The position numbers were made by a program, and so were the translations under genes. DNA of 64,000 nucleotides. Source: Pseudomonadota bacterium. Its GTDB lineage: Bacteria > Desulfobacterota > Binatia > Binatales > Binataceae. A model generated the notes under the pieces. It was not told the DNA's origin and did no database searches. It saw nothing but the letters and a program-made list of their open reading frames with translations. Below are positions 49,644-64,000 of the stretch, piece by piece (positions within the stretch are counted from its first letter, which is position 1; each line of letters begins with the position of its first letter). The stretch lies in NCBI GenBank assembly GCA_021323945.1, contig JAJPKA010000014.1, positions 124,001 to 188,000 on the forward strand. Direction: 5' to 3'.

Positions 49644-49664
49644 CATATGTTGGTGAGAACGTAC

Positions 49665-50438
49665 ATGCCGCCCCGCGAAAGCAACCCGACAGCATTTGAC
49701 ACCGAAACCGGCGCCAAACCGGCGGCGGACAATGCTTCAGAGTCGCAACCCGGCCAGGCTGGCGAGTCGGTCTGGGCTGAAGAACGGCTGATGTCCGTGC
49801 TTGAAAGCCTGCTGTTTGCCGCCGGCGAACCGGTGACCCTGTCGCAGCTTGCCAACGCGCTTGACGAAGTACCGCGAGAGCGCATTCGCAAATCGTTGAA
49901 TGCGCTGGCGACGCGCTACGCTGACGCCGGACGCGGGATAATGCTCGAGGAAATTGCGGGTGGCTATCAACTGCGTACTCGTAGTGAACATGCGGTCTAT
50001 GTGCGACGGCTGTTGTCAGCCAAACCGCCCCGACTGAGTCGGCCGATTCTCGAGACACTCGCTGTGGTTGCTTATCGGCAGCCGGTCACGCGTCCTGAGA
50101 TTGAACAGCTGCGGGGGGTGGATAGCGGGGCCGTGCTCGATACGCTACTCGAACGCAACCTGATCAAGGTCGCCGGACGCAAGGAAGCTCCCGGACGCCC
50201 GCTTATGTACGTGACCACGTCGGAATTCCTCGAACTGTTCAGTTTGAAGGACCTCGAGGAATTGCCAAATCTGGAAGAGTTTCGCGAAATCGAGAATTTT
50301 CGCGCGACTCAGACCGATGAGCAGACTCCCAGCCCGCAAGCACGCGCCGACGCCCGCGAATCCCCAGGCGAGCTCACCGCTTCAGATAATGAAACAGTAG
50401 TCCCAGCTATCGAAAAGACATCCCCATCCGATGAGTGA
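49665..50438 (+). CDS. scpB: segregation and condensation protein B
   Basis: A 257-residue condensin accessory made of two winged-helix domains: VLESLLFAAGEPVTLSQLANAL and ILETLAVVAYRQPVTRPEIEQLRGVDSGAV, then KEAPGRPLMYVTTSEFLELF. The first ~25 and last ~40 residues are polar and probably disordered. The ATG at 49665 has GGTGAG at 8-9 nt, whereas the track ATG at 49647 has none. It forms an operon with scpA and ends the conserved run. Confidence 0.94.
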   Translation: MPPRESNPTAFDTETGAKPAADNASESQPGQAGESVWAEERLMSVLESLLFAAGEPVTLSQLANALDEVPRERIRKSLNALATRYADAGRGIMLEEIAGGYQLRTRSEHAVYVRRLLSAKPPRLSRPILETLAVVAYRQPVTRPEIEQLRGVDSGAVLDTLLERNLIKVAGRKEAPGRPLMYVTTSEFLELFSLKDLEELPNLEEFREIENFRATQTDEQTPSPQARADARESPGELTASDNETVVPAIEKTSPSDE

Positions 50439-50481: not shown

Positions 50482-51477
50482 TCACGGAACCCGCCGAATT
50501 GTACCTTCCTGACGTGAGCAACTGAACTCCAGGGCCTTCCACGCGACTGCCGCTCCCCGTTCGACGGCTCCACCGATGGTGATTCTACCGTTTGAAGCCG
50601 CCAGTCTTGCGTTGGCTTCATTGGCTAAGCCCTGTCCGATAGTGATTGAGCCGGCGATTGAGGTGATTTTGGCTTCGCCGGCCTGTTCGATTTTCCCACC
50701 GATCGTAACATCGTCATGGGCCATCGCCGTCAGTTTTGAACGCGGGCCCAAATTGTCAAGAAGGTGGATGCTCTTGCCGGCGGTAACCACCGCCACGACC
50801 CGATTTTGGTTCATCGTGCCGATACTGACTGTGCCTCTGAGCGAGATGACATCCAGGTTGGCCTCCTCGCTAATCGTACCCGCGATCGTAACGTCCCACT
50901 GGGCGGTGATTTTGGCGCTTGAATTCTGCCCGACGTCACCGTCGATCTGCACGACGCTTCCCGGAGTCAACTCACTTTCGCTGCGGTAAGTTTGCGTAAT
51001 AGGGTCGATTTCGGGCGCTGCCGAGGTAATCGTAACACGCGCGCGCTCGGCTATCGCGTGGCAAATTAACACGTCACCACCCGATTGAATCTGGACGATC
51101 GAGTGCGGGCCGATGCCCTCTTGGATCCTCACTCCCTTTGCGGCCTTAAGCGTCGCCTGAACACCTTCCCCGATGCGGCCAGCAATATTGATCGTCCCAT
51201 AGCGACTTTCGAGAGTTACTTTGCAGTTAGCCAGTATCCTGTCCAGCGTCAGATCGCCGTCTGTCACGTGCTCGACGATCTCCTCGACGGGAGAGGTGGA
51301 CTTAGCCGGTTCGATGTGGGGCCGTCGACGGTTTTGGAAGATTGAACGTCCCAGCGGCCGCCACGGACGATTCAAAAAGGCAAATAACTCCCGTGTCGTT
51401 CGCGTCACCGACGGTTCGGAATGGTGATTTGAGGGCTTGAACTGTGCCTTGACTGCCTGCGTGTTTTCGCTGGCCAT
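50482..51477 (-). CDS. repeat protein of predicted right-handed beta-helix type, function unknown
   Basis: About 331 residues, not recognised as a named family. After ~70 polar, basic residues, the rest is a regular series of short beta-strand pairs about 20 residues apart, each built like xVTIAGTISEEANLDVIS, DVTIGGKIEQAGEAKITS, SITIGQGLANEANARLAA and RITIGGAVERGAAVAWKA. This Thr-Ile-Gly / Ala-Xxx-Leu ladder predicts a beta-helix or bactofilin-like polymer. No signal peptide. The ATG at 51477 is preferred to a GTG at 51507. It converges with scpB. Confidence 0.65.
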   Translation of the reverse strand: MASENTQAVKAQFKPSNHHSEPSVTRTTRELFAFLNRPWRPLGRSIFQNRRRPHIEPAKSTSPVEEIVEHVTDGDLTLDRILANCKVTLESRYGTINIAGRIGEGVQATLKAAKGVRIQEGIGPHSIVQIQSGGDVLICHAIAERARVTITSAAPEIDPITQTYRSESELTPGSVVQIDGDVGQNSSAKITAQWDVTIAGTISEEANLDVISLRGTVSIGTMNQNRVVAVVTAGKSIHLLDNLGPRSKLTAMAHDDVTIGGKIEQAGEAKITSIAGSITIGQGLANEANARLAASNGRITIGGAVERGAAVAWKALEFSCSRQEGTIRRVP

Positions 51478-51819
51478 ATGTTGTTCCAGACCACCACGCA
51501 GCAACACATATGCCTATTTCTCGCCAAGCTCTCCTGCAGCGCGCGGCGCTGATTCATTGTGCCACACTACGTTGGTTTCGGCCGCTTTTCGACTGAAACG
51601 ACATGACTTTGATAACTATAAGTGAACAAAGATACAGTCCGACTGCCGCTTGCTTAAACATTGCTGAAGATGCGCGCAGATGAGACATTTACATCGAAAG
51701 TGTGTTATTTGACGATTCGGTATGAATCACATACCCGACTCATACCCTTCCAGATTAAGTGAGTCATCTTTAATTATCGTCTATCGTCGTCAATTCTTTC
51801 TCGCAGTCTGCGAACTGCT
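51478..51819. other. AT-richer intergenic region upstream of the repeat protein
   Basis: About 340 bp without a convincing gene between the minus-strand CmcJ-like gene and the repeat-protein gene. It is clearly richer in A and T than its surroundings. A perfect inverted repeat GGTATG-AATCA-CATACC lies at 51719-51735, a possible operator, and an imperfect repeat (CATATGTTG versus CAACACATATG) spans the start-codon region of the repeat gene. No promoter was fixed with confidence. Confidence 0.4.
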
Positions 51820-52611
51820 TCATTGCCCTTCAGAGATGAAAAAGGCGATGGTTCGTACCTCTATGCTCTGGCGGGGACGCGCATCAGGCGGGCTCTGCGG
51901 GTCGTCGAACGAAGTATGAGCGGTGAAGCGTGCTCGCCCATCACACCTTGAATCGAAACACTTGAACAATAGCACCTCGGTCGTCTTCATATCAGCAAAA
52001 TAAAACCACCTATGACGCGGACTGAAATTGAAAAGGTAAACCTCATGTTTGACGCCCTCCTCGGTGGGCACCAGGTCCTCTTCGCGGATGCTCCGCGCGT
52101 CACATATAGCCAGGGGAGATTCCTCTACCGGACCATCAATGGGTCGCCAAACGTTAATCAGTCCATAGTGCGACTTGAGTAATGTGTTAGCTTCCGTACC
52201 CAGGTACAGGCGGATTCGCTCGGGCGAGGACTTCTGCGTATAATCGTCGTGAACAACCTTGACCGGCTCCCGCACCCAACTCAATCGCTGACGCGCGCTT
52301 GCACTAGAACGCAAGTCGTGCTCGAACGCCACGACCTTGGTTGCGCCGGTAACTCCTCTGACCAGCTGCTCGACTTCCCGGTAGTAGAGCGTGCGCACCT
52401 GTGACTGATCGTAGAAATTAGAGACGGCGGTACCGCATCGTTCGAGTTGGAATCCCTGAACATCGAGCGACAAGGAATCAGCCAAGGGCCGCGCGTCATG
52501 GATCGAGACTAGACGGTGGCCCTCGGGGCTGGCGTAATTAAGTCGCGCCTGAACAGACCTGAGGGTTTTCTCACACTCGCTCAGCTTACCTGAATCGGAA
52601 CCGGTTGGCAT
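51820..52611 (-). CDS. CmcJ/NvfI (GA4 desaturase)-family oxidoreductase
   Basis: A 263-residue protein of the family named after CmcJ of cephamycin synthesis and fungal NvfI, iron/2-oxoglutarate-type enzymes. Family blocks visible: VVAFEHDLR, VHDDYT, INVWRPIDGPVEESPLAICD, LFNFSPRHRWFYFADM, EVLLFKCFDSRCDG and ARFTAHTSFDDPQSP, ending PRQSIEVRTIAF. The His and Asp residues in VHDDYT and AHTSFDDP are the likely metal ligands. GAGGGG lies 6 nt before the ATG. It follows the SMP-30 gene by 38 bp, so the two are probably co-expressed; substrate unknown. Confidence 0.8.
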   Translation of the reverse strand: MPTGSDSGKLSECEKTLRSVQARLNYASPEGHRLVSIHDARPLADSLSLDVQGFQLERCGTAVSNFYDQSQVRTLYYREVEQLVRGVTGATKVVAFEHDLRSSASARQRLSWVREPVKVVHDDYTQKSSPERIRLYLGTEANTLLKSHYGLINVWRPIDGPVEESPLAICDARSIREEDLVPTEEGVKHEVYLFNFSPRHRWFYFADMKTTEVLLFKCFDSRCDGRARFTAHTSFDDPQSPPDARPRQSIEVRTIAFFISEGQ

Positions 52612-52649
52612 GATTGCCCCTCAACGGCGAAGCGGCCCACGGAAATCAG

Positions 52650-53555
52650 TTATCGCTGATGGTACAGCGGGTGACCGTGGAAATTGGTATGGACACGGCT
52701 GAAGTGATCACCTTCGAGATTCGCGAAATACAAATCCTGCAAGCCGGGTCCGCCGAAAGCGCAATTGGTTGGGAAAAAGAGCTTCTCGCCTTTGGGATCA
52801 TCGATAAGCGTGCTCCATTTCCCGTTGGTATCCACTTGGATAATCTGATGTGCCGGTGCCATTTTGCCGTCACGGATGAACGCAGGTAGGGTGACAAAGA
52901 GCGTGCCGTCGGCAGCAAAAGCCATGCCGTCGGGCAAGGCGGGAAAATCTCGAGAATATACCTCGGGTTTTCCCCAGGAACCGTCCTTCCTGATAGGAAT
53001 GCGCAGGCAATCGTGGCGGGTCGACTCCAAAACGTAAACCGCTTCCTCTTTTGGGTCGATAGCCGTGCCATTGGCGAGATAGATGCCGGTTGCCACAATC
53101 TCACTCGTGCCGTTCCTACGAATGCAGACAACCGCGCCATTGGGCTCAGGGTGGGCCATCTCGGAGAGGACACTATTGATGTCGCGGGTGCTCGAATTAG
53201 AAACGTAGAGGTTGCCGTCGGCATCATAAGTAGCAAAATTGGGCAAGGTCAAAGGCAAATCCCTGACCCGGTCAGCAATCATTGAAACCTGGCCACTTGG
53301 ACTCACCTTCATCATCGCCTTTTTGCCCAGATCGCAATAGACGAGATTGCCCTGGCGGTCCATTGTGATGCCGTTAGGAATGGAACCGGCGGGCAGCGAG
53401 CAAAGTTCACTAACTTGTCCGTCGGGGGACACCCGATAAATGATGCCGTTGCGGCCACCCCCGTACACGTAGTTCTGTTTATCGATCACAACTCCTTCGG
53501 CCTTGAGGACGCCACGCCCGAAAATCTCGACCTGATCGAGTGAATATGTTGCCAT
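52650..53555 (-). CDS. SMP-30/gluconolactonase/LRE-family protein
   Basis: A 301-residue six-bladed beta-propeller. Blade-type repeats include AEGVVIDKQNYVYGG, PNGITMDRQGNLVYCD, YDADGNLYVSNSS and PDGMAFAADGTLFV, with the calcium/metal-site Glu and Asn residues expected of lactonases (SIPNGITMD, LANGTAIDP). These enzymes hydrolyse sugar or other lactones. GGGAGAGG stands directly before the ATG. It is first in a two-gene unit with the CmcJ-like oxidoreductase; this pairing hints at an oxidation-then-lactone step, which is inference. Confidence 0.88.
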   Translation of the reverse strand: MATYSLDQVEIFGRGVLKAEGVVIDKQNYVYGGGRNGIIYRVSPDGQVSELCSLPAGSIPNGITMDRQGNLVYCDLGKKAMMKVSPSGQVSMIADRVRDLPLTLPNFATYDADGNLYVSNSSTRDINSVLSEMAHPEPNGAVVCIRRNGTSEIVATGIYLANGTAIDPKEEAVYVLESTRHDCLRIPIRKDGSWGKPEVYSRDFPALPDGMAFAADGTLFVTLPAFIRDGKMAPAHQIIQVDTNGKWSTLIDDPKGEKLFFPTNCAFGGPGLQDLYFANLEGDHFSRVHTNFHGHPLYHQR

Positions 53556-53901: not shown

Positions 53902-54447
53902 ATGTCCGAAGGTTTTACTCTCTGGTTCACGGGTCTTTCCGGTGCCGGCAAGTCCACTTTGGCGAATCTGGTCGCGGGCGAATTACGACGTCGCGGCCAT
54001 CGCGTCGAAGTGCTTGACGGCGACGAGGTACGAACCAATCTGTCGAAAGGCTTGGGCTTCTCCAAAGAAGATCGCGACACTAATATTCGTCGGATCGGTT
54101 ACGTCTGTAAGCTGCTGGCTCGTAACGGGGTCATCGCGATTTCAGCTGCAATCTCACCATATCGTGAAGTCCGCGATGAGATCCGCAGGCAGCACGAGAG
54201 GTTTTTTGAGGTCTACGTCAAATGTCCGCTTGATACATTGGTCGAACGCGACGTCAAAGGGCTTTATCGTAAGGCATTGAAGGGCGAAATCGCCAATTTC
54301 ACCGGTGTCTCGGATCCCTACGAAGAACCATTCAGTCCTGAGCTCGTGATCGAAAGCAATCGAGAAACACCCCAACAAAGCCTCGAGCGCTTGCTGCAAA
54401 GCCTTGAGCAGGCCGGGTTGATCTTCGCTCAAGGAGCGGGCCGATGA
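53902..54447 (+). CDS. cysC: adenylylsulfate kinase
   Basis: A 181-residue enzyme that phosphorylates APS to PAPS. It has the P-loop [50 protein letters not shown] and the lid region [29 protein letters not shown] precedes the ATG. Its stop overlaps the sat start by 4 bp (ATGA), so the two sulfate-activation enzymes are translationally coupled. The later reductase steps are not in the window. Confidence 0.96.
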
Positions 54448-55622
54448 GTACGTTCAACAATGACCCGATTTCGCCACACGGCGGTCAGGAATTAGTTGAC
54501 CTCAGAGTGCCTGATTCGGAACGCGCGCAGATGCGCGTCTACGCGGAGAAGCTCCCGGTGGCGACACTAAACGCGCGGGACCTGGCTGACCTTGAAATGC
54601 TGGCTACGGGTGCTTTTTCACCGTTGACCGGCTACATGGGAGAAGCCGACTATCTGCGAAGTCGAGATGAAATGCGTTTGGCTTCGGGTACTCCATGGCC
54701 AATCCCGATCACCCTTGGGGTTGATGAAGCCACCGCACGAGGACTCGCTCGCGGCCAGGACGTCGCTCTCGCGGCCGAAAACGGTGACCGCATCGCAATT
54801 CTTAGAGTTACGGAGATCTACCAGGTCGACCGTCGCCGCGAGGCCGAAGCTGTGTTTGGTACCGCCGATGAGGCCCATCCGGGAGTAAGGAACGTTCTCG
54901 CGATGATGCCCTGGTGCTTGGGGGGGCGTGTAATGCTGTTCGAGGAGGTGCCCGGGCGCACCTTCCTGCAGTATCCCCGGGAGCCGCGGCAATGCCGCGC
55001 GCAATTCCGCACCAATGGTTGGCGGAAAATCGTCGCCTTTCAGACCCGCAATCCTACTCATCGTGCGCACGAATATATTCAGAAGGCGGCTTTGGAGATT
55101 TGCGACGGTCTTCTGCTCCATCCGCTTGTAGGTGAAACCAAGGATGATGACGTCCCCGCGGCTGTAAGGATGGAGACGTATGAACTGCTGCTTAAACTTT
55201 ACTATCCGCGGGGACGTGCGATGCTGGCGGTGATGCCGGCACATATGCGCTACGGAGGACCGCGTGAAGCCATTTTGCACGCGATAGTGCGCCGGAACTA
55301 TGGCTGCACACATTTCATCGTAGGGCGCGACCATGCCGGGGTCGGCAAGTACTACGGAAGCTACGACGCTCAGAAAATTTTCGACCGTTTCGACCCTGCT
55401 GAGATCGGAATCACGCCACTGACATTCGAAAATACCTTCTACTGCCGTCGATGTGGAGCGATGGCCTCATACAAGACCTGCCCCCATAGCGATGAGGACC
55501 GTTTGCTACTGTCAGGCACAAAGGTTCGGGAGATGCTGCGGCGTGGAGAATCGCCCCCGCCGGAGTTTACCCGCCCGGAAATTGCCGCGGTTTTGGTGCG
55601 GGCAATGAAGGAGACCAAATAG
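54444..55622 (+). CDS. sat: ATP sulfurylase (sulfate adenylyltransferase), single-subunit Sat
   Basis: A 392-residue enzyme that makes APS from ATP and sulfate. It shows [15 protein letters not shown], the catalytic [26 protein letters not shown] and a zinc-type segment [15 protein letters not shown] near the C-terminus, as in archaeal, Aquifex and sulfur-bacterial Sat. It lacks a fused APS-kinase domain, which is provided by cysC just upstream. Assimilation is the simple reading, since dissimilatory genes (aprAB, dsr) are not seen here. Confidence 0.96.
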
Positions 55623-61245: not shown

Positions 61246-61620
61246 ATGGCAGATAAAAACCTCTCGGAAGCGACCCAGAGCGCTGCGGCATCGGCTCGTC
61301 AGGCGGCAGCCGGCGCGCAGGAGTATGTTGGCAAAAGTGCAGACGCGGCTCGCGATTATGCCAGCAAAGGATATGAAACCGCGCGCCAGTACGCTGATAC
61401 GGCACGCGAGTATGCTACCAAAGGCTATGATGCAGCGCGCGAATACGCGAGCCAAGGCTACGAGGCCGCCCGCGAGTATGCCAATACCGGGATCGAGGTC
61501 GCGGGAAGGGTTAGCGATAATTTGTCCGAATTCGTACGCAAGGAACCGTGGATTGCTGTTGCGGCGGCGTTCGCGATTGGTTACGTCACTGCACGCATAT
61601 TGCGTCGCCTTTCAGTCTAG
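61246..61620 (+). CDS. YqjD/ElaB-like protein with hendecad repeats and C-terminal membrane anchor
   Basis: A 124-residue protein. Residues ~20-85 repeat units such as ARDYASKGYET, AREYATKGYDA, AREYASQGYEA and AREYANTGIEV, mostly 11 long with one 7-residue unit, giving an amphipathic helix or coiled coil as in LEA-like and apolipophorin-type proteins. The end EFVRKEPWIAVAAAFAIGYVTARILRRL is the DUF883/YqjD membrane anchor, linked in E. coli to ribosome binding. AAGGAG stands before the ATG. It lies in a row with the BON gene and a small membrane protein, suggesting a stress or stationary-phase unit. Confidence 0.8.
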   Translation: MADKNLSEATQSAAASARQAAAGAQEYVGKSADAARDYASKGYETARQYADTAREYATKGYDAAREYASQGYEAAREYANTGIEVAGRVSDNLSEFVRKEPWIAVAAAFAIGYVTARILRRLSV

Positions 61621-62145: not shown

Positions 62146-62553
62146 CTAGCGATTTTTTGGTTTGCGCTTGTCGAGCAAAGTCGCGATCGCATTGACGAGC
62201 GGGTCAATCTTATAGGGCTTCCGGAGGAATGAATCGTAGCCGAGGCACCGTTCTTTGACGCTTTCCTCAGGCAATGCGCTGGTAACGATCACGGGAATCG
62301 AGGAGTATTCGGGGCTGGCAGCCAGTACTTTGAGCACCGCGGCACCGTCCATTACGGGCATCATCAGGTCGAGCACAATCAGTTCGGGTTTATTTTCCTG
62401 GACACGCATCAGTGCATCCCGCCCATTAAGTGCGGTTACTACTGAATAGCCAAGATCCGTCAGGATGAATTCGAGCACCTCGAGAACCCCGGCTTCGTCA
62501 TCGACGATGAGTATCGTCCTGCCGGCCGGATTGGAATCGAGGGGCTTCGCCAT
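62146..62553 (-). CDS. single-domain response regulator (CheY-like receiver)
   Basis: A 135-residue receiver domain with all phosphorylation residues visible: acidic pair in LIVDDEAGV, phospho-acceptor Asp in IVLDLMMPVMDG, Thr/Ser switch in IVTSALPEES and Lys in FLRKPYK. No output domain follows, so it must act through protein contacts. Its start lies 12 bp after the KaiC-family gene stop on the same strand, implying a shared operon and function. GGTGAGGA precedes the ATG. Confidence 0.93.
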   Translation of the reverse strand: MAKPLDSNPAGRTILIVDDEAGVLEVLEFILTDLGYSVVTALNGRDALMRVQENKPELIVLDLMMPVMDGAAVLKVLAASPEYSSIPVIVTSALPEESVKERCLGYDSFLRKPYKIDPLVNAIATLLDKRKPKNR

Positions 62554-62565
62554 TCCTCACCACCA

Positions 62566-64000
62566 TCACTTCTCGCGCAACTCCACAGGTGATGGGGTCG
62601 CGCGATACAGACCCGAGAGCAGCACTTCGGCACTGGCCGAATCCGGAGCGATCTCGATTCCCTGGCTAGTAATCGACAACTCGCGAAGATTAGAATCGAA
62701 GGCGCTGTCACGGACCTTTAGGATCGATAGCACCCTGGATAACTTTGCCCCGAGCTCAACAAAACGCAGTATGATGTGATTGTCCGTGGTGTCTGAGAGG
62801 CCGACCAACGGAGCGGTCATTGTCGGTCCTATAATTTCTACAGGCTCGGCCGTGCAGATCGTCGTGGTCCCCATTCGAGCCAAGGCCTCCGCCAAGGCGG
62901 CCAAAAATGGCTCCATGGGGCGAGAACGAAGCGCTTTCTTGAAGCCGCCCAAGCCGTCGAGCACCAGACGGCGCACCTTTCTACGACTAACTGCCTCTAG
63001 CAGCCGAGCCGCCAGCTCATCGAGTACCCATTCGGAGGGTGCTTGCCAAAGAATCTCAATGATACCCGCATCAAGTGCCTCGACGAAATGGGGGAACATT
63101 TGAGCTCTGGTACGGATCCGCGCCGGAGTCTCGTAGAATCCGAATAACAAACCAGGTTCGTTGCTATTTGCTTGGGCCAGGAAGTGGAGTCCCATCGTAG
63201 TTTTGCCGGTGCCCGATGGCCCCACTACCATCGTCAAAGTGCGCTCCGGAATGCCTCCTCCCATCATTGAATCCAAGCGCTCAATTCCGGACGAGACGCG
63301 CTTGAGGCGGACATCGTCGGCTGGCAAATTGCGCATTTGCGCCTCTAGCCTTGGATATACCGTGATACCGCCCACACCTATCTGATAATTGTGAACCCCC
63401 TCGAGATAGGAACTGCCGCGAAACTTTCGAATCTGGAGTTCGCGCATCATCCCACAATTGCACAAGGCGCCCGCAAGATTAATGACACCGTCGACCATGG
63501 TTTCTTCGGACGACGGTTTGACCTCAACAGGATTAACCAGTAGAAACACGCTGCAATCCGCTGCATCCGCGTGAGTCTGAAGCTGCTGCACAAAGACTTT
63601 CAGCTCTTCAGAGGAGTGGGCCGAATCAGACGCCGAGGCGAAGCCGTCGAGCACCAGGATCGTCGCCTGGCGCATCGCCACTTCGCGTCGAAGCAGATGT
63701 AATAATCCTGTCAGCCCATCGCTTTTCAAAGTTTTAAATCCACTGATATAGAAAATACCAGTTCCGACCATCCTTTCATCAAAAAAATCCAAGCCGCTCA
63801 GATTACGGAGCATACGCCCAACAGTTTCGGCCATAAGTGTGACGTACAAGACGCTGCTGCCTGCTCGTGCATGACAAAAGGATAGTTGGTTGCCAAAAAT
63901 GGTCTTACCCGTACCCGGAGCGCCTTCAACGATGTAGAGGCCGCCCCTGATAAAGCCACCTTGGAGGACTCTATCCAGTCCGTCGATTCCCGAAGTTAGC
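62566..64000 (-). CDS. two-domain KaiC-family ATPase (5' end outside window)
   Basis: The reading frame continues past the track start (63849) to the window edge, giving at least 478 residues. The first domain holds Walker A EGAPGTGKT, encoded around 63910, and the second holds VGPSGTGKTT at about 63210. Both domains carry RecA/KaiC features (SGIERLDSMMGGGIPE; LVLDGFAS and LVLDGLGG as Walker B strands). The usual KaiC catalytic glutamate pair is not obvious: the segments read TLMAETV and GFYETPAR. Related KaiC-like proteins work in stress, motility or phosphorelay signalling. It is followed by a lone response regulator. A circadian role should not be assumed. Confidence 0.85.
   Translation of the reverse strand, partial: LTSGIDGLDRVLQGGFIRGGLYIVEGAPGTGKTIFGNQLSFCHARAGSSVLYVTLMAETVGRMLRNLSGLDFFDERMVGTGIFYISGFKTLKSDGLTGLLHLLRREVAMRQATILVLDGFASASDSAHSSEELKVFVQQLQTHADAADCSVFLLVNPVEVKPSSEETMVDGVINLAGALCNCGMMRELQIRKFRGSSYLEGVHNYQIGVGGITVYPRLEAQMRNLPADDVRLKRVSSGIERLDSMMGGGIPERTLTMVVGPSGTGKTTMGLHFLAQANSNEPGLLFGFYETPARIRTRAQMFPHFVEALDAGIIEILWQAPSEWVLDELAARLLEAVSRRKVRRLVLDGLGGFKKALRSRPMEPFLAALAEALARMGTTTICTAEPVEIIGPTMTAPLVGLSDTTDNHIILRFVELGAKLSRVLSILKVRDSAFDSNLRELSITSQGIEIAPDSASAEVLLSGLYRATPSPVELREK

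Follow-up and report, generated by a model that had tools for sequence, protein, structure and literature searches.

Bactofilins form nucleotide-independent, non-polar filaments, and the exoproteins of two-partner secretion carry a signal peptide and a TPS domain and are encoded beside an FhaC-type transporter gene. The bactofilin fold is a right-handed β-helix of ~110 residues with unstructured tails, often with an N-terminal membrane-targeting sequence resembling MFSKKKK, which is widespread among bactofilins but not universal (PMC12448750). We analysed a window of 64,000 nucleotides in which a preliminary description had picked out a protein of ladder-like repeats as a possible bactofilin-like polymer or scaffold, and compared this protein with bactofilins, FapA-type solenoids and exported adhesins. 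We find it to be a new orphan within a fold class that is common and evolves easily.

The open reading frame lies on the minus strand at 50482–51477 and encodes 331 residues from an ATG start to a stop codon at 50482–50484; an in-frame GTG at 51507 is an alternative start that would add ten residues (MLLRGGLEQH). Its GC content at codon positions 1–3 (0.58/0.49/0.64) and codon adaptation index (0.73) agree with those of the neighbouring genes, whereas those of an antisense frame of 137 codons at 50576–50989 (0.47/0.54/0.67 and 0.66) do not, so that the frame originally read is the coding one. Upstream, and on the same strand, a 342-bp AT-rich gap separates it from a gene for a CmcJ/NvfI-family oxidoreductase (51820–52611, minus strand; NF041278, E=1e-81), beyond which lies an SMP-30/gluconolactonase-like (SGL-type) protein (PF08450). 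This pair (51820–53555) is divergent from the sulfate activation genes cysC and sat (53902–55622), an arrangement that is kept in a genome of the same genus, and the oxidoreductase has several homologous copies in some relatives. Rfam returned no RNA features for the region of the 331-residue gene. Elsewhere in the window, a 124-residue protein (61246–61620) has about five tandem, LEA-like repeats of the type A-x-x-Y-A-x-x-G-Y followed by a hydrophobic C terminus, and a response-regulator receiver protein adjoins a KaiC-like ATPase domain protein (62146–63849), the two resembling a signalling unit.

On its other side the gene does lie next to scpB (49647–50438, plus strand; PF04079, E=2.1e-56), as first described, with 43 bp between the two stop codons. 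The meaning attached to this adjacency is nevertheless unsupported: the genes are convergent, so that they are not co-transcribed, and the related genomes examined lack the 331-residue gene at this place. A functional link with scpAB is therefore rejected, and the position beside scpB is uninformative. The congeneric genome G001 retains gcvT, amidohydrolase, sat, cysC, SGL and CmcJ as a block in the same order, at 63–87% identity, but unrelated genes follow it and the 331-residue frame is absent there; the scpB gene of G001 is located at the end of a contig. Other members of the family that we checked have different genes beside scpB, including a DnaB-like helicase identified by eye. Together, these comparisons place the gene at a lineage-specific junction, where synteny breaks.

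The preliminary description had counted about ten ladder repeats of about 20 residues, and this holds. An N-terminal tail (residues 1–64; 51286–51477, this and all following parts on the minus strand), basic and predicted to be disordered, leads into a first partial rung (residues 65–85; 51223–51285), where both AlphaFold2 models place strands. Ten rungs then span residues 86–309 (50551–51222), as supported by autocorrelation, the model and a leave-one-out position-specific scoring matrix. Each rung is 20–22 residues long except rung 4, which reaches 40 through an inserted 20-residue loop (residues about 152–174; 50956–51024) modelled with low confidence. The consensus of a rung is roughly akItA.gdVtIgG.Ie..A, and in both the sequence and the predicted structure the rungs stack ladders of Val, Ile and Leu inside and turn at Gly, Asn and Asp positions. 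Capping strands at the C terminus (residues 310–331; 50485–50550) are long in the model, with pLDDT falling from ~87 to 75 at the end. At lags 19–22 the BLOSUM autocorrelation reaches −0.31, whereas shuffled sequences average −0.64 (s.d. 0.095; z about 3.5), and the best six of 65 lags (61, 60, 20, 21, 40 and 41) are multiples of 20–21, so the periodicity is above chance. In the leave-one-out test, 6 of the 10 rungs reached the 1-in-12,886 level against other proteins of the window, a somewhat optimistic figure since the register was set by hand. Direct repeats within the gene at the DNA level are short, poor and almost gone, indicating that the rungs have diverged and are not the product of a recent expansion.

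Structure prediction, which had been proposed as a check on the suggested β-helix, returned a solenoid in two AlphaFold2 runs. The single full-length sequence gave a pLDDT of 59.7 with C-terminal rungs above 90, whereas residues 64–331 gave a regular solenoid with a mean pLDDT of 71.6, a pTM of 0.65 and C-terminal rungs at about 90. In the trimmed model, strands recur every 20–21 residues along most of the chain, with a break at the rung-4 loop, although confidence in the solenoid's N-terminal half is only moderate. Foldseek found no match at E≤0.001 in the PDB or among viral models; the best PDB matches, all above this threshold, were mostly β-helices with TM scores of at most 0.40. Pfam, NCBIfam and PHROGs were likewise searched for a known domain covering the repeats, and none was found, nor any catalytic or secretion domain. 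Regular stacked rungs of ~20 residues with strands in every one, as seen in prediction and statistics alike, make assignment to the β-solenoid class fairly secure. The claim that the protein lacks a signal peptide also proved correct, the highest 19-residue hydropathy within the first 64 residues being −0.17. These residues have a pI of 11.8 and a net charge of about +7, and a stretch around residues 25–46 (TRELFAFLNRPWRPLGRSIF) would be amphipathic if helical. That the protein is both a solenoid and cytoplasmic we consider very probable.

Relatives were sought widely. Among 148 genomes of the class, one of them from the same genus, and again among 395 genomes sampled from the phylum, the protein matched only itself. 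Neither peptide patterns run against GTDB contigs, which detect close relatives only, nor a pattern-based scan of IMG/VR, nor tblastn against phages revealed a relative. A degenerate two-rung DNA pattern, likewise limited to close relatives, also found nothing in any of the GTDB contigs, although it fixes one Asp codon that is not used here and so would miss the 331-residue gene itself. A two-rung profile built from the protein's own repeats recovered only the protein itself in relatives, plus one marginal match (E=0.008). In a search of 57 relatives, one match to residues 7–65 (E=0.005) contained an internal stop and was judged to be due to chance. The gene thus looks like an ORFan, restricted to one species as far as is visible in the collections searched.

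What, then, is this protein? It is not a bactofilin. A predicted β-helix, a disordered tail and the lack of a signal peptide would suit a highly diverged member of that family, yet a Pfam scan to E=10 does not list the bactofilin A/B domain (PF04519), the same profile finds three other genes of this genome at E≤1.2e-22 with the 331-residue gene not among them, and hhalign against those three bactofilins gives a probability of 0.3% over 23 columns. The N terminus reads MASENTQ, or MLLRGGLEQH from the GTG, and not MFSKKKK, and in place of a compact helix of ~110 residues there is a predicted solenoid of ~270 with one substantial tail only. Profile, hhalign, targeting sequence and length all being against family membership, this reading is hardly credible, and 'bactofilin-like' survives only as a loose analogy. 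A minimal FapA-type solenoid protein is very unlikely too. FapA (PF03961) is the sole Pfam match, in three stretches with E=0.045, and shares a repeated β-strand motif, but its score of 13.8 bits falls short of the 31-bit cut-off, the other FapA-related profiles gave no match, and the PF03961 profile is equally weak on other loci of the same genome and in 13 of 14 control genomes, where a single match exceeds the cut-off. We therefore rejected this identity as resting on a sub-threshold, non-specific profile; our literature search on FapA solenoids led no further than the Fap amyloid of Pseudomonas, an unrelated system, and similar topics. A more serious rival is that the protein is a remnant of an exported β-helical adhesin of the filamentous-haemagglutinin or autotransporter passenger type, stranded after the loss of signal, secretion domain and transporter. 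The sole sequence matches in any collection, from tblastn against plasmids, are weak and fall on Rhizobium hemagglutinin-repeat proteins, one of which has a locus that also holds an FhaC-type transporter gene, and the best PDB match of the trimmed model is the TibA autotransporter passenger (4q1q; probability 0.69, E=0.088, TM 0.37). However, the Rhizobium matches are of 21–25% identity on biased, repetitive sequence; a phmmer match to one such protein (L042) has a score and a bias correction of about equal size, and we attribute it to a repeat composition that the two share; and any right-handed helix fits passenger repeats. The N terminus is not hydrophobic, a Pfam scan of the protein finds no TPS domain, no transporter gene is present among the flanking genes of the window, and a search of the host genome for PF05860, run without a positive control, found none. 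The basic tail and C-terminal cap, moreover, resemble those of a complete small protein. We consider this origin unlikely, though by no means negligible.

The other serious rival is that no function is under selection: the gene would be an ORFan, either evolving quickly or newly acquired, that is neutral or in decay at a rearrangement junction. This would explain the lack of relatives in genomes of the class and phylum, the synteny break with its adjoining AT-rich gap, and the absence of a promoter-like site on the gene's strand in the scanned region. The frame is intact, however, its codon use is host-like, and the ladder has been kept although the rungs have diverged and the DNA-level repeats are nearly gone, suggesting that the fold has long been under selection; we regard this reading as rather unlikely. 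A scaffold or polymer function is the leading, though weak, guess. The gene would encode a cytoplasmic single-chain β-solenoid of about 11–12 rungs that serves as a passive rod or scaffold, associating with itself end to end or binding partners along its flat faces, while the basic disordered tail might hold it to an acidic surface such as the inner membrane or nucleic acid. In favour of such a scaffold are the strand spacing in the two models, the periodicity and coding-type codon use, together with the basic tail and the lack of signal peptide, catalytic and secretion domains. Against it, the lack of homologues leaves no conservation by which a surface or a function could be backed, the gene has neither a partner nor a conserved operon around it, and confidence in the N-terminal half of the model is moderate, with no solved structure matching at E≤0.001. 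The complete scheme, a lineage-specific cytoplasmic solenoid scaffold tethered by a basic tail, is accordingly tentative. A more far-reaching reading, in which a solenoid unrelated in sequence to bactofilins builds, in a genome that has three of them, a cytoplasmic filament or scaffold that needs no nucleotide and is peculiar to the lineage, is doubtful. Were the protein to polymerise, a β-helix cytoskeletal element would have arisen independently of the bactofilins; on present evidence, it is another ORFan whose fold is very common and easily evolved.

In comparison with known systems, the protein shares with filamentous-haemagglutinin and autotransporter passengers a β-helical ladder of ~20 residues and weak tblastn and Foldseek matches, and differs in that signal peptide, secretion domain and transporter partner are all missing, with no structural match at the threshold applied. 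With bactofilins (PF04519, IPR007607) it shares a β-helix, a disordered tail, the lack of a signal peptide and a probably cytoplasmic location. The host genome already has three ordinary bactofilins, at G000:C15:13864-14151, G000:C14:39902-40189 and G000:C8:126314-126598 (L008–L010), and two or three are present in most of the relatives checked. The first of the three, which starts with MALFNKE and comes close to the known membrane-targeting motif, directly precedes frames resembling ATP synthase b/b' subunits. Set beside these, the 331-residue protein may possibly work in a bactofilin-like manner, with a solenoid ~2.5 times longer than the bactofilin domain of about 110 residues.
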